From positions 1-27,454 of IMG/VR virus record IMGVR_UViG_3300025133_000504: a stretch of 27,454 nt of DNA; one strand, 5' to 3'. Numbering within the stretch: position 1 is the first letter of the stretch; the number at the start of each line of letters is the position of its first letter. The position numbers and the translations under genes are program-made. Below, piece by piece: positions 11,282-22,662 of the stretch. The notes under the pieces were generated by a model. That model was not told the origin of the DNA, made no database searches, and saw nothing but the letters and a program-made list of their open reading frames with translations. The stretch is from a virus.

Positions 11282-11773
11282 TTAATCACCTCTGTCCACA
11301 GATTCAATTTCAGGCAACCACTCCTCGACCGTAGGGGGGAGTATAACTTGATCAGGATCTTTCGTCTTAATCGGTCTTTCGCCTGAAAAGATGGATAGCT
11401 TCTCTATGACTGCTGTCTGTAGTTCTGAGATCTGCTCTCGGCTGAGTTGCATCTGAATCTGTGCATCCCTCAACCGGCCTATCAATGCTTCTCTGTCAGC
11501 GTTGGCAGATGCTAGCTTGTCTTTGAGGTCCTCGACTTCTGAAGGATCACGACCTGACGCTATAGCCATCATAGATGAGATAGAGCCGGTGATCATCCCG
11601 AGTATGCCTACTAAGACATCTCTGTTCTTTTCAACTATCTCCACATAAGTTAAGAATAGGATGAGCCCAACGACCAAGAGCATAAAAAATACACTAAACC
11701 ACCATCCCCGTTTGGTTTTCTCTTGGGCGCTGAGCTCTTTCTCTGTCTTACGCTGTTTAATATCCTGAGCCAT
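11282..11773 (-). CDS. Two-TM membrane protein with coiled coil
   Basis: A 163-residue protein I do not recognise. A basic, charged N-terminus (about 1-23) is followed by a transmembrane segment (WWFSVFFMLLVVGLILFLTY, 24-43), a short charged loop (EIVEKNRD), a second hydrophobic, small-residue-rich segment (VLVGILGMITGSISSMMAIA, 53-72), then a coiled coil (about 78-124) and an acidic tail. Both ends are predicted to lie on the same, probably cytoplasmic, side. It overlaps the cyclase homologue upstream by 17 bp, so the two are very likely translated together. The layout could fit a holin-like or pore-forming effector or a membrane scaffold; no cyclic-nucleotide-binding domain is seen. It lies 53 bp before the portal gene. 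Confidence 0.75.
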   Translation of the reverse strand: MAQDIKQRKTEKELSAQEKTKRGWWFSVFFMLLVVGLILFLTYVEIVEKNRDVLVGILGMITGSISSMMAIASGRDPSEVEDLKDKLASANADREALIGRLRDAQIQMQLSREQISELQTAVIEKLSIFSGERPIKTKDPDQVILPPTVEEWLPEIESVDRGD

Positions 11774-12560
11774 AAAACATTCTCACTATAAAGTTGGCTG
11801 TAATCTGTAACCATCTCACATATCCCTGAGCGCTCAAGTAGGGCCACAGTGTGCAGATGATGTAGATGAGATTGATCAGAGCCCATCGAGGTAACACCCA
11901 CATGATCCACTCTAAGACTTTACGGTCACGCGCTCTACTCTTGACCTTCTTAGGACCACCTAGTCGTTTTACTTTGTCAGTACCCTCAGGAGGCTGAAGC
12001 GACTTAATATCACTGCCTACTGCGTAGAGAGTCTGAGGAGTCTTTACACCTTTGAACTTATAGAGACCTATCATCACATATCGAGTCCCTTTTGGCGTAA
12101 ATGCATTGGTCGCGCCCTTGACAGACTCTAGCGCTTCAGATGTTAGAAGCACCTGACCAGCTCCACAGAGTGACATGGTGCGCGCTGCTATATTCTTACT
12201 GATACCCTCAAGCTCAACTCGTTTTGCTCCCACTGCTGTCCACGTGTCATCTTGGATAACCTCGATGACTGTATCCCAATGGATCCCTATTCTAGTATTC
12301 AAGTAAGTCTTGGCAGGAATAGTCTGTTGATAGATCAGTGCAAAGTTGACAGCATCGATGGGTCTATCAAAGCTCAGCATAAAACCATCAGATCTATCTA
12401 TCTCTCTACCGTCGAACTTATACAGCAAAGACCTGGTTAAACGGTCATGATACTGAAGCCAGATAGCAGCGTCCCTAGCGCCCACCTTCTCAACAAAAGC
12501 TGTACTGCCTATGAGGTCGAGTAGTACAATTGCTAACTGTCTCTCTTTGAGGTCGACCAT
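11757..12560 (-). CDS. Class III nucleotide cyclase homologue with C-terminal membrane segment
   Basis: A 267-residue protein. Residues about 8-182 form a class III adenylate/guanylate cyclase-type domain. Visible elements are the first metal Asp (D15 in LLDLIGST), the second (D58 in RSDGFMLSF), RIGIH at 90-94, the transition-state pair N123/R127 in KNIAARTMSL, GAGQVLLTSEAL, and KFKGVKTPQTLYAVG. The usual adenine-selecting Lys four residues before the second Asp is Ile54, and the Asp partner position is Glu116, so ATP or GTP preference cannot be assumed. A basic linker (about 196-214) leads to a hydrophobic region (216-242) and an amphipathic tail, placing the enzyme on the membrane. It overlaps dCMP deaminase upstream (28 bp) and the two-TM protein downstream. 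Pycsar cyclases belong to the same superfamily; membership here is unproven. Confidence 0.82.
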   Translation of the reverse strand: MVDLKERQLAIVLLDLIGSTAFVEKVGARDAAIWLQYHDRLTRSLLYKFDGREIDRSDGFMLSFDRPIDAVNFALIYQQTIPAKTYLNTRIGIHWDTVIEVIQDDTWTAVGAKRVELEGISKNIAARTMSLCGAGQVLLTSEALESVKGATNAFTPKGTRYVMIGLYKFKGVKTPQTLYAVGSDIKSLQPPEGTDKVKRLGGPKKVKSRARDRKVLEWIMWVLPRWALINLIYIICTLWPYLSAQGYVRWLQITANFIVRMFYGSGY

Positions 12561-17251: not shown

Positions 17252-17812
17252 CTATTGTGGCCCATACTTAAAGGGCTCTCTTTTAATTAAGTTTTCATTC
17301 CAATCTGACATTGGGTGTGAATATCTCCACAGCCCCCATGCATCAAACAGCGCTAAGACTTCACCTTGTCTACGCTCGAGATCTACCCACCGACCATTTA
17401 ATTGTAGATCCTGATTCATCATAATCTGCAAGACTTGTCTGGGTGTTAGGTCTCTCTGTGGCAGTGGCTCGTAGGGGTTAGGTATATACTTAGGATTAGG
17501 CGCGTGTTTTGAAATAAATGCGCTAGGCCATATCACCTCTACTTCAGCCTCTACCTCTGTCTCTACCTCTACCTCTGTCTCTACCTCTACCTCTGTCTCT
17601 ACCTCTACCTCTGTCTCTACCTCTACCAGCTCCCCATGATCATTAAACGCTGGATCATCGATGACTGCTTTGGGTAGACGATAAGTTTTAGTAGAGTGTT
17701 TAGCCTCTGATGCTGATTGTCTAGCAAGTTCTAGCTTGCTAATCAGGCCACGCTTGTCACTGGGTGACACGTGCTGACTTGACCAGCTGCCTTTAACCAT
17801 CTTGATCTTCAC
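17252..17812 (-). CDS. Hypothetical protein with VEVETE repeats
   Basis: A 186-residue protein of unknown function. The N-terminal 60 residues are basic and helical. Residues about 62-95 are a Glu/Val/Thr repeat (unit VEVETE, four perfect copies plus a degenerate one), likely a rigid or extended acidic spacer. The C-terminal part (LTPRQVLQIMMNQDLQLNGRWVDLERRQGEVLALFDAWGLWRYSHPMSD) is a compact helical domain. It overlaps the putative nuclease upstream by 20 bp and lies 8 bp before the metallopeptidase homologue, in the DNA metabolism cluster. Confidence 0.6.
   Translation of the reverse strand: MKIKMVKGSWSSQHVSPSDKRGLISKLELARQSASEAKHSTKTYRLPKAVIDDPAFNDHGELVEVETEVEVETEVEVETEVEVETEVEAEVEVIWPSAFISKHAPNPKYIPNPYEPLPQRDLTPRQVLQIMMNQDLQLNGRWVDLERRQGEVLALFDAWGLWRYSHPMSDWNENLIKREPFKYGPQ
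17555..17626 (+). repeat. Four perfect 18-bp tandem repeats
   Basis: CTCTGTCTCTACCTCTAC is repeated four times without a single difference at 17555-17572, 17573-17590, 17591-17608 and 17609-17626, with degenerate copies on the left. It encodes (on the minus strand) VEVETE units and the length is a multiple of three, so copy number can change without breaking the frame. Confidence 0.9.
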
Positions 17813-19112: not shown

Positions 19113-19661
19113 CTATGGAATGATGTTTCCATCTTTAGCTCTAGGTTGTGGGGATGCCCATTGATCATGCTTTTGCTCAGGCCAAGTATTCTCAGCGCCC
19201 TTATCCCATGCACTCTGTGGAGCTGGTCGCTGATCTACATAGGGGTATGATGTGTTAGTCACCCTTTGAATCTGCTGGTCTTGGCTTGCCCAGTCGTCAT
19301 TGATCTGAGCTTGATTGAAGTCTTGACCTTGGTGTGACTTTCGTTGATCTGGCGTCTTAAACCAACGTGTGCACATCACATACCACTTAGTGACCTTTGT
19401 CTCTTCGTTAATATAATTCTTGTGACTGCCTTCAATCACCACATAGTCACCTTTGTTTAAGCGCTCCATTGAACGAGCGCCAGACTCTCCATAGACTCGG
19501 ACATCAAACCAATTAGTGTTATTGGTCCACTCTCCATTAATCTTGTAGTTGTCATCTACAGCGACACTGAATCTAGCATATCGTTTACCTTGATGTGTTG
19601 TTTCTGCTGTTGGTTTGGCTCCCAGCCTACCTGAGATAACAAGACTGTTAGTACTGGCCAT
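19113..19661 (-). CDS. ssb: Single-stranded DNA-binding protein
   Basis: A 182-residue SSB. The N-terminal OB fold covers about 1-110: SLVISGRLGAKPTAETTHQGKRYARFSVAVDD, WTNNTNWFDVRVYGESGARSMERLNKGDYVVIEGSHK, TKWYVMCTRW, matching bacterial SSB strands. A Gln/Pro/Asp-rich disordered linker follows. The last residues DGNIIP resemble the bacterial DDDIPF interaction tip but lack the terminal Phe, so partner binding may be altered. It should protect ssDNA during phage replication and recombination. Its ATG overlaps the stop of the small ribbon-helix-helix gene as TAATG. Confidence 0.9.
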   Translation of the reverse strand: MASTNSLVISGRLGAKPTAETTHQGKRYARFSVAVDDNYKINGEWTNNTNWFDVRVYGESGARSMERLNKGDYVVIEGSHKNYINEETKVTKWYVMCTRWFKTPDQRKSHQGQDFNQAQINDDWASQDQQIQRVTNTSYPYVDQRPAPQSAWDKGAENTWPEQKHDQWASPQPRAKDGNIIP

Positions 19662-20099: not shown

Positions 20100-20305
20100 C
20101 AGCTTCCTCTAAAGCCTCATACACTTCTTCGCGGTGGCCTAATACTTTGAAGGGAGTGATGGGGCTTTCTTTATTTTGGCGTAAAGCTCTAAGACACCCT
20201 GAGATTATTTTGGCACTCGCCTGATGATCGAGCTGAGATTATTTTGGCGTAAAGCTCTAAGACACCCTGAGATTATTTTGGCACTATTTTGGCGGGGAGC
20301 ATTTA
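20092..20305 (-). pseudogene. Small gene broken by tandem duplications
   Basis: Reading the minus strand from ATG at 20303, the frame is interrupted within ten codons. If one copy of an 11-bp tandem unit (GCCAAAATAGT) and one copy of a 68-bp tandem unit are removed, an uninterrupted 43-codon ORF appears, beginning MLPAKIISGCLRALRQ and ending REEVYEALEEADD before TAA at 20094-20092. The 3' 48 codons (20092-20238) are open but lack a start. Neither duplication is a multiple of three. The end of the predicted product is strongly protein-like. It lies between the helicase loader and RHH genes, in the same direction. No clear Shine-Dalgarno is present, and a chance ORF cannot be excluded. Confidence 0.35.
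20171..20293. repeat. 34-bp-spaced iterons, candidate replication origin
   Basis: TTATTTTGGC occurs at 20171-20180, 20205-20214, 20239-20248 and 20273-20282, exactly 34 bp apart each time, with a fifth variant CTATTTTGGC at 20284-20293, 11 bp further. A larger 47-bp direct repeat (20171-20217 and 20239-20285) contains these. The array is directly downstream of the initiator and helicase loader genes and next to an AT-rich stretch (19950-20020), the layout of an iteron-type origin. Binding by the initiator is inferred; regulatory use is an alternative. Confidence 0.55.
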
Positions 20306-20338: not shown

Positions 20339-21358
20339 CTAATTGGTCCACGCGCTGTAAGGAGCTGCTTGGACTCTCTTAGACTCTCCAACCATTTTGA
20401 CAGGCACAAACATCTCTTTAATCCGATCTTGAGCTTGTGTGCTCTCAATAAACTGCACACCAGTCATATTAGATGAGATGATCACTTGTAGCTTACCATT
20501 CAACCACTTCTCATAGATCTGGATGAGTGTGTTTTGTCCAAACTCGAGCCACCATTTATTACTAAGCATTGATCCATTATTGCCTCCAAACTCATCGATG
20601 AATAGGAAGTCCACGCCCTTTATCCACAAAGGTACTTCAGCTTCCTTGTCATCCTTGCCCTCTGATGAAGCGACCATAGGATTCTTCATGTCTTTATTAT
20701 TCCATGAAGTCGTCTGTTGCCCTCTTAGCGCCTGATGAGTGATGAACTTAACCTTATGCCCATAGTAACAAGCCTCTCTTGCCATAGCATACATAAATGA
20801 GGTCTTGCCTGTACCCTTTGTGCCACATAGATAAAGAGCTGGCTTTGGAATGCGCCTTGGCTGCTCATCTTCTGGTAAGAGTCTAACCCTCTGCTCTTCT
20901 TTTAATCTCCCAATGAAGTCATCAGCGTGACTCTTTAGCTCAGGGAATGACTCAAACGAGTACCCACCCTCATCAGTTTCCTCACTTTTAAAATACATCC
21001 CTGAAGCTTTGGAAGGTAGCTTAACTGAAGCTAGGCGCTCGAGCCATCTTCTAGGGACCTCACACCTTTGACATGGTCCTCCTCTTGGAGCTGTTGTCCC
21101 TGTTCGTCTTACTGTCGACCATTGGCCATTGGCGCAGTTACTATGGCCACAGTAGTGAACTGGTTTAGGGATTAGCAGATGAGGATGGCCAGAGATATAG
21201 TCATTGGCCTCCAGGTTGCTCGGCTTTAAATAGCTAAAGTCATCAGCGTTAAGGTCAGTCTCTACCGGCTGATAAGTATCCTGACCTCTTTTCTTAGCAA
21301 TATTCTTTTTAAAGAGATCCAGATTCATAAAATTTATAGCTTCACCAATGCTCTTCAT
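20339..21358 (-). CDS. DnaC-like helicase loader ATPase
   Basis: A 339-residue AAA+ ATPase. Walker A is GTKGTGKT (179-186) and Walker B is FLFIDE (Asp255, Glu256), followed by LSNKWWLEFGQNTLIQIYEKWLNGKLQVIISSNM, which includes the sensor-1 Asn, and a late arginine-containing helix. An N-terminal zinc-binding type region (CGHSNC at 70-75 and CQRC at 96-99) precedes it. This is the layout of phage DnaC/IstB-type loaders that place the host replicative helicase at the origin. The start overlaps the initiator gene's stop (ATGA). Together they form an initiator/loader pair like lambda O and P. Confidence 0.85.
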   Translation of the reverse strand: MKSIGEAINFMNLDLFKKNIAKKRGQDTYQPVETDLNADDFSYLKPSNLEANDYISGHPHLLIPKPVHYCGHSNCANGQWSTVRRTGTTAPRGGPCQRCEVPRRWLERLASVKLPSKASGMYFKSEETDEGGYSFESFPELKSHADDFIGRLKEEQRVRLLPEDEQPRRIPKPALYLCGTKGTGKTSFMYAMAREACYYGHKVKFITHQALRGQQTTSWNNKDMKNPMVASSEGKDDKEAEVPLWIKGVDFLFIDEFGGNNGSMLSNKWWLEFGQNTLIQIYEKWLNGKLQVIISSNMTGVQFIESTQAQDRIKEMFVPVKMVGESKRVQAAPYSAWTN

Positions 21359-22068
21359 GAGTAGCTCCTAGCTTTAAGTGATGATGCAGCGTTTATCTGT
21401 GAGTGTATAGATGAGTTCTTGTGGCGCTTCTGGCTCCTGAGTTTTGCTTTTTGATAATCAGATAAATGAGAGTCATCCTCCGCGCCCTCTTCTTTTAGAT
21501 CTTCTTTTTTTACTTTATTAAGACTTAAAGAGATTTTATTGTGTGCCAAGTTGTCAGGGAGGGTAGGCCAATTTGACACTGGTGGTGGACAATCTGACAC
21601 TGGTGGGTGTGCCAAGTTGTCATGGGGAGGGTGACAATCTGTCATGGGGGGGTGACAATCTGACACTGTCTTGTCCTGCTCAGGAGGGTGACAATCTGTC
21701 ATGGGAGGGTGACAATCTGACACTAGTGGTGGATTACTCATCTCGACCAGTTTATCAATATTAAGAGTAATCACGTGGTCACCCTTTGAGCGATTCTCTG
21801 ACATTGTGATTACTCCTAAGCTCTGGAGCTCCTTAAGCGCTCTCTTGATTGTCCTCATCGAGACAGACTCATCATGCATCTCATCAGAGTCAGCGCCTGA
21901 GTATCGATTAAACCTCTTATATATATAAGACGCCGTTATCCTCTTCGACCATGTCGACCAGTCAAAACCACCGCCTGAGTTGCCGCATAGGCTCATCAAT
22001 ACCATCTTAGCTGTGTGCATCTTAATAGGTGCGCTCTCGGCTAGTCTGTAAACATCACTTTGCTTCAT
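21355..22068 (-). CDS. Replication initiator, winged-helix protein with intragenic iterons
   Basis: A 237-residue protein. The N-terminal part (about 5-110) is a winged-helix of the phage O/RepA-like kind: AESAPIKMHTAKMVLMSLC, RITASYIYKRFNRYSG, SVSMRTIKRALKELQSLGVITMSENRSKGDHVITL. A low-complexity middle has HPP-containing peptides (TDCHPP, SDCHPP, DNLAHPP), and the end is a basic helical tail. I place the start at ATG 22068 because AAAGGA lies 5-6 bases before it; the longer frame from 22095 has no ribosome site. The repeat region is also a DNA iteron array, as in lambda O. It is the first gene leftward of the divergent control region and couples to the helicase loader. Confidence 0.75.
   Translation of the reverse strand: MKQSDVYRLAESAPIKMHTAKMVLMSLCGNSGGGFDWSTWSKRITASYIYKRFNRYSGADSDEMHDESVSMRTIKRALKELQSLGVITMSENRSKGDHVITLNIDKLVEMSNPPLVSDCHPPMTDCHPPEQDKTVSDCHPPMTDCHPPHDNLAHPPVSDCPPPVSNWPTLPDNLAHNKISLSLNKVKKEDLKEEGAEDDSHLSDYQKAKLRSQKRHKNSSIHSQINAASSLKARSYS
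21546..21722. repeat. Eight intragenic iterons, candidate origin
   Basis: Eight copies of an 11-bp motif (A/C)CAA(T/G)(C/T)TG(A/T)CA begin at 21546, 21568, 21589, 21612, 21634, 21655, 21691 and 21712, mostly 21-23 bp apart, i.e. about two helical turns. Two copies extend to the palindrome TGACA-ATC-TGTCA. The spacing is not always a multiple of three, so copies fall in different reading frames. This points to selection on the DNA rather than on the protein, as at lambda ori inside gene O. Confidence 0.65.
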
Positions 22069-22203
22069 CACTTTCCTTTCATGAATATTTAACATATTTG
22101 TATATTGACAACACGCTTGAGCTATGTCAAGTTGTTTGAGTAACTACAACTAACTTGAGTTGCTTAAATCTAAACACTCAGGATAAATGAAGGAAGGTCC
22201 AAC
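22069..22203. promoter_or_regulatory. Divergent control region with CTTGA/TCAAG operators
   Basis: This 135-bp gap separates the leftward replication genes from the rightward regulator operon. It holds CTTGA-GCTATG-TCAAG (22116-22131), TCAAGTT (22127-22133) paired with AACTTGA (22152-22158), and AACTTGAGTT (22152-22161). A minus-strand TTGACA (22130-22125) with a weak -10 about 18 bp on, and a plus-strand TTGACA (22105-22110), lie among them. The layout suits a repressor or activator acting on both directions, probably the HTH protein encoded alongside. Promoter positions are uncertain. Confidence 0.5.
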
Positions 22204-22662
22204 ATGGATGAACTAAAGAGGATAAGACTAAGAGGATTAGCTGAGCGTGGGCTCTCATCTCTAGCTGATGAGGTAGATATCGACCTACCACAGCTATCGA
22301 GGATTATTGCCGGAAAGACTCCATGCTCATTAAAGAGAGCTGTTACTCTTTGCTATGTGACAAACCGTATGGCTAAAGCTGTTAATCAGTCACCAGACTT
22401 TACCCTCCAAGATTTTAGAGCTGATGCAGAGGGTGAAGCGCTAAAGCCTGATCATAAGTTTTGGATCACAGAGGTCTTATTCAAGGGGGCTGCTGGGTTC
22501 ACAGCTGGTGAGATACTTGAGCGCCCTGAGTTCAAGACCAATCAAGATCTCATGCTTGCGCTTCATCATGCATTAAACACAGACAAGACCGGTCACTCAT
22601 GGGGCTCCTGGCTAATCAGCCACAGTTCATCACGCAAACCTTGGTTCTCAGAGGAGTCTTAA
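22204..22662 (+). CDS. HTH transcriptional regulator (Cro/CII-like)
   Basis: A 152-residue protein with an N-terminal helix-turn-helix (LRGLAERGLSSLADEVDIDLPQLSRIIAGK, about 9-38); the DLPQLSRIIAG recognition helix resembles phage Cro- or CII-type regulators. The C-terminal part is unrecognised and not an obvious peptidase (no LexA-type cleavage domain). It starts after AAGGA, on the plus strand at the head of the divergent region, and is expected to act on the CTTGA/TCAAG sites nearby. Whether it represses or activates, and whether the phage is temperate, cannot be told from this window. Confidence 0.7.
   Translation: MDELKRIRLRGLAERGLSSLADEVDIDLPQLSRIIAGKTPCSLKRAVTLCYVTNRMAKAVNQSPDFTLQDFRADAEGEALKPDHKFWITEVLFKGAAGFTAGEILERPEFKTNQDLMLALHHALNTDKTGHSWGSWLISHSSSRKPWFSEES

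Follow-up and report, generated by a model that had tools for sequence, protein, structure and literature searches.

An array of eight iteron-like dyad sites lies within the putative replication initiator gene of an uncultivated phage (IMG/VR virus record IMGVR_UViG_3300025133_000504, positions 1 to 27,454; this whole stretch of 27,454 nucleotides is referred to as the window). As judged from the sequence, the array very likely constitutes the initiator-binding part of a phage replication origin, which would reside inside the initiator's own gene as it does in lambda. The relevant features are given below, where L002 denotes the sole close relative found in IMG/VR.

19113..19661 (-): single-strand binding protein gene of the same replication module (Pfam SSB, E = 3.1e-17)
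20171-20282: 34-bp repeat array, 3.3 copies, noncoding, located past the loader gene
20339..21358 (-): gene for a helicase loader (PHROG_50, DnaC-like, E = 1.9e-19)
21355..22095 (-): initiator gene, 246 aa (PHROG matches, AlphaFold model, Foldseek)
21493..21542 (-): AT-rich stretch, 82% A+T, candidate unwinding element, one base past the last iteron
21544..21722 (-): array of eight iteron-like dyad sites, 13 bp each (motif search; more than in recoded genes; all kept in L002)
21544-21556, 21566-21578, 21587-21599, 21610-21622 (-): dyad sites 1-4
21632-21644, 21653-21665, 21689-21701, 21710-21722 (-): dyad sites 5-8
21544..21556 (-): second-frame copy, PDNLAH (SVKLAH in L002)
21610..21622 (-): second-frame copy, HDNLAH (PDKLTY in L002)

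A sequence-only reading of this DNA had reported eight copies of an 11-bp motif from position 21546, spaced by 21-23 bp and once by 36 bp. Motif search recovered all eight, with start-to-start steps of 22, 21, 23, 22, 21, 36 and 21 bp in window order. The repeats are thus real, but a 13-mer dyad, TGNCA-N3-TGNC(A/C), fits them better than an 11-mer, and the array starts at 21544. All eight sites fit the gene-strand consensus TGNCARNTTGNC; in the order of the list above, their gene-strand letters are TGTCAGATTGTCA, TGACAGATTGTCA, TGTCAGATTGTCA, TGACAGATTGTCA, TGACAACTTGGCA, TGTCAGATTGTCC, TGTCAAATTGGCC and TGACAACTTGGCA. Hyphenated dyad symmetry is present, with arms matching at five of five positions in two copies, at four in four copies and at three in the remaining two. 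The whole array is contained in the coding sequence of the initiator ORF (21355-22095), where the sites occupy, in gene order, frames 1, 1, 1, 1, 2, 1, 1 and 2. The six frame-1 copies encode (V/M)(S/T)DC(H/P) or VSNWP peptides, and both frame-2 copies encode DNLAH. The earlier statement that the copies fall in different frames therefore applies to two of the eight, while the other six share one frame.

Such a number of sites exceeds what chance gives in synonymous sequences. When codons were shuffled among synonymous positions, 1.4 sites were obtained on average (maximum no higher than 5; 5000 trials), and recoding of the same protein with phage codon usage yielded a mean of 0.7 (again at most 5; 5000 trials). 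Taken together, none of these 10,000 trials reproduced the eight sites.

Conservation of DNA and of protein was compared between the window and its one close relative, L002. The initiator of L002 shares 85% amino-acid identity with that of the window in a gap-free alignment and keeps eight sites at the same places. Motif columns T1, G2, C4, A5, T8, T9, G10 and C12 were picked from the window alone, being invariant among its own eight copies. None of the 64 positions so defined differs between the two phages, as opposed to 40 of 115 positions elsewhere in the array (Fisher p = 2e-9). Third codon positions follow the same partition: differences were found at 0/24 in the motif, at 18/36 in the rest of the array and at 31/187 outside it. 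At the protein level, 26 of 62 residues are changed in the array versus 10 of 184 outside. Both out-of-frame copies retain the site in L002, although HDNLAH is replaced by PDKLTY and PDNLAH by SVKLAH. Linkers between copies are altered in concert (HPP to HTP), so the array may have been homogenised repeatedly. By this comparison the array is conserved as DNA and not as protein. The same had been proposed before, a view at odds with any homologue that preserves the peptide and loses the motif; in L002 the motif stands at all eight places and the peptide is changed.

The protein encoded by the gene resembles known initiators. Over its whole length it matches PHROG_270 (replication initiation protein, E = 2.3e-6) and PHROG_391 (O-like, E = 5.6e-6). 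With the N-terminal 122 residues alone, that is with the repeats left out, the E values are 2.5e-3 for PHROG_270 and 4.5e-3 for the O-like family, and the list still consists mostly of initiator families; the match owes part of its signal to the repeats. An AlphaFold model built on 31 related initiators comprises a winged helix (approximately residues 12-120), a low-confidence linker (121-207) and a C-terminal helix (213-242). Foldseek relates the model to the winged-helix regulators Fur, MarR and TubR (E about 1e-2, probability about 1), a relationship that concerns a single domain only. Residues of the low-confidence linker are those encoded by the array together with the AT-rich stretch, and on the basis of the model the array-encoded segment is probably a disordered linker.

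The surroundings of the array are also in line with an origin of this kind. The adjoining AT-rich stretch is the AT-richest 50-mer of the initiator gene, its value being reached by 0.01% of window 50-mers, and 3 of 60 bases differ there from L002. The loader gene follows directly, its start overlapping the initiator stop (ATGA), and its product is DnaC-like and not P-like. GC skew provided no usable origin signal, and Rfam search of the region returned no structures. Upstream, where genes 21355-22095 (-) and 22204-22662 (+) diverge, three CAA-N5-(C/T)TTGAG sites with exact 19-bp steps are located at 22109-22159. They are conserved in L002 and, by their sequence, resemble a set of three operators for a phage repressor of the Cro/CI type. 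A ninth iteron in promoter position, TGTCAAGTTGT at 22125, was considered but not counted: the 22 best profile hits of the window do not include it, and it forms part of this operator-like triad. Two further observations were made elsewhere in the window. ORF 11757-12560 (267 aa), situated between ORF 11282-11773 and a dCMP deaminase-like gene, presumably encodes a protein with a nucleotide cyclase-type domain (LLDLIGSTAF...), an unusual phage cargo. At 17548-17627, a perfect 18-bp tandem repeat (4.4 copies) encodes the acidic repeat EVEVETEVEVETEV in ORF 17252-17812.

The following course of events can be envisaged. The winged-helix N-domain of the initiator would bind the dyad sites, most simply as one dimer per site, the sites being aligned at about two helical turns. 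The resulting nucleoprotein complex would melt the AT-rich stretch beside the last site. The product of the next gene, the DnaC-like loader, might then be recruited by the C-terminal part of the initiator and would deliver the host helicase. Since the disordered linker presumably tolerates many peptides, the copies would be free to occupy either of the frames that avoid an in-frame TGA.

Similar arrays occur in other phages. Viral contigs were scanned for three exact TGACA-N3-TGTCA dyads joined by gaps of 5-30 bp; 71 stretches were found, compared with 2 for a scrambled dyad of the same composition. Fifty-six of these arrays are contained within one open frame, and 36 of the 56 mix frames. Collapsing at 50% protein identity resulted in 23 clusters of mid-sized ORFs, mixed frames being present in 14 of them. 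Initiator-like genes with this dyad are spread over about twenty phage groups. PHROG_270 is matched by 39 of 50 proteins (44 from the scan and 6 others), a match to which the repeats can contribute. Among the 20 clusters tested for their downstream neighbour, 11 have DnaC-like or P-like loaders or DnaB-like helicases at this place. In the 60 bp 3' of the array, A+T averages 0.61 compared with 0.51 for the gene (p = 2.5e-4). Lambda has a purine bias beside its iteron array; such a bias is not general in the census.

In seven cases (L023, L049, L069, L072, L032, L037, L066) dyads are packed in ORFs at 15-bp steps. Arrays of this type, a few of them in other genes, may serve another purpose, because the gene that follows the array in L049 codes for a terminase large subunit. 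In L040 and L059 the dyad array is situated at around codon 790 of open frames that comprise nearly 1000 codons, and the encoded protein is much larger than the usual initiator. A scan of bacterial genomes (L082-L197) gave a different picture: 104 of 116 triplet stretches lie outside any open frame of at least 140 aa, mostly in intergenic regions. Intergenic triplets of Bacilli occupy promoter-like places, with dyads typically 28-40 bp apart, and resemble operators of a conserved transcription regulator. Since the bacterial stretches are mostly operator-like triplets of this sort, they were not used as evidence for origins. To judge from these sequences, the dyad seems to be used by other regulators too. 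The motif alone is consequently not diagnostic, and the assignment as origin relies on the context described above.

Exact dyads obey a simple coding rule. In one frame the dyad starts with TGA, a stop codon, and the other two frames encode (V/M/L)-T-x-C-(H/Q) or D-x-x-S; only two peptides can therefore be encoded. All 91 exact copies in census clusters are in these two frames (59 and 32, respectively). A 22-bp step can only move from the first frame into the second, a step of 23 bp can only do the reverse, and this pattern matches the census. Both the peptides and the steps follow from the genetic code, and no further mechanism is needed. On balance we favour, with some reserve, the view that winged-helix initiators from unrelated phage groups widely use TGACA-N3-TGTCA as their origin iteron, which is placed in the linker-coding part of the gene and recognisable by its two-peptide signature.

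Two other functions of the array have to be weighed against that of an initiator-binding array. The repeats could be a feature of the protein, a tandem VSDCHPP/MTDCHPP peptide that slippage has multiplied within a disordered linker, the likeness of DNA being only a by-product. One frame is indeed common to six of the eight copies, linkers between copies change jointly and no structure is predicted for the segment. Yet the two copies in the other frame still hold the DNA site, motif positions are unchanged where two fifths of array residues are not (0/64 versus 26/62), recoding of the same protein fails to give the sites, and unrelated phages share the DNA dyad with different linkers and frames. 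The substitution pattern and the recoding control led us to reject a protein repeat that arose by slippage only, and we regard this explanation as very improbable. Alternatively, the array might act as an operator or roadblock through which the initiator or another regulator controls transcription of its own operon, and not the start of replication. Iteron-binding initiators of plasmids are known to regulate their own synthesis, and the intergenic triplets of Bacilli beside promoter-like sequence are in line with such a role. The array of the window is, on the other hand, located in the middle of a gene, some 370 bp past the start codon and next to the AT-rich stretch, and census arrays mostly occur in initiator genes that are followed by loader or helicase genes. 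Transcriptional control as the function of the array is thus unlikely, whereas autoregulation is compatible with origin function and the two could coexist.

The 34-bp array had been put forward, together with the array in the initiator gene, as one of two candidate origins around the loader gene. Its existence was confirmed: GCCAAAATA recurs within 20171-20293 at steps of 11, 34, 34 and 34 bp. If both arrays started replication, the arrangement would be reminiscent of phage SPP1, which has two origins (PMC6316719), and the position in a noncoding gap after the loader gene would suit this role. The 34-bp array nevertheless sits in a noncoding insertion of about 230 bp that is missing from L002, profile scan detected no iteron inside it, and no counterpart was retrieved from the viral contigs searched. 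Moreover, the SPP1 origins share one initiator, whereas the two arrays of the window are unrelated in sequence. No further cluster of the iteron motif was found in the 27-kb window, which is possibly a genome fragment. These sequence comparisons give no support to a second origin at the 34-bp array, and we hold a pair of origins to be extremely improbable.

The array within the initiator gene, which we take as the likely origin, shares its general design with oriLambda. In both phages dyad iterons are located in the initiator gene and in several frames, with an AT-rich neighbour and a helicase loader gene next to it; adjacency of iterons and an AT-rich region has been described for oriLambda (PMC6022878). 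Gene O contains four iterons, at steps of 20, 24 and 23 bp and in frames 0, 2, 2 and 1, so the comparison with lambda made by the sequence-only reading is apt, and mixed-frame iterons inside an initiator gene are already present in that phage. The differences concern the components: four 18-bp iterons ATCCCTCAAAACGAGGGA in lambda versus eight 13-bp sites TGNCARNTTGNC in the window, and loader P versus a DnaC-like loader. BLAST comparison of the window initiator with lambda O gave no match. By analogy the array may work like oriLambda, but because its iteron sequence differs and the O-like PHROG match of its initiator is not accompanied by a BLAST match to O, we did not classify it as a lambda origin. 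A related layout is known from oriL of SPP1, where direct repeats and an AT-rich unwinding element reside in initiator gene 38 and a loader gene follows (PMC6316719), as they do in the window; SPP1 differs in that its initiator binds at a further origin as well, whereas no second array of the same sites was found in the window. A putative origin inside an initiator-like gene has also been proposed for Francisella phage KIRK (PMC7924643).

Vibrio phages 1.016.O, 1.216.O, D171 and 252E42.2 (L004-L007) carry TGACA-N3-TGTCA or a close variant at steps of 21, 22 and 30 bp. As in the window, their sites are placed directly past the winged helix and the last copy is in another frame, but protein identity is only about 25%, copies number 4-5 and other genes follow downstream; in L004 and L005 the next gene codes for a DnaB-like P-loop NTPase. 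Apart from L002, the closest census relatives are viral contigs L011, L027 and L057. They resemble the window in having 7-9 copies that alternate between DTMS and TPCH frames, and in L011 a DnaC-like loader is likewise next. They differ in the core triplet, mostly CCA instead of GAT, in the strict TGACA/TGTCA arms of most copies and in 18-bp steps besides those of 22 and 23 bp.

Searches of papers outside subscription journals brought up no description of this iteron class, and the exact motif strings tried occur in none of the papers searched. Added here are a direct test of DNA against protein conservation and evidence for one dyad serving many phage initiators. A likely replication origin is pinned down in an uncultivated phage, and conservation of DNA and of protein is separated within one coding sequence. 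According to the census, initiators of many unrelated phages appear to be served by one and the same iteron sequence, and research on origins gains a natural set of arrays in which the site is the same and number, spacing and frame vary. If the dyad is indeed such a widespread iteron, its two-peptide signature, D-x-x-S and T-x-C-H/Q repeats that come after a winged helix, would be a simple origin flag in phage proteins annotated as hypothetical, and the origins of many unannotated phages could be located by protein sequence alone.
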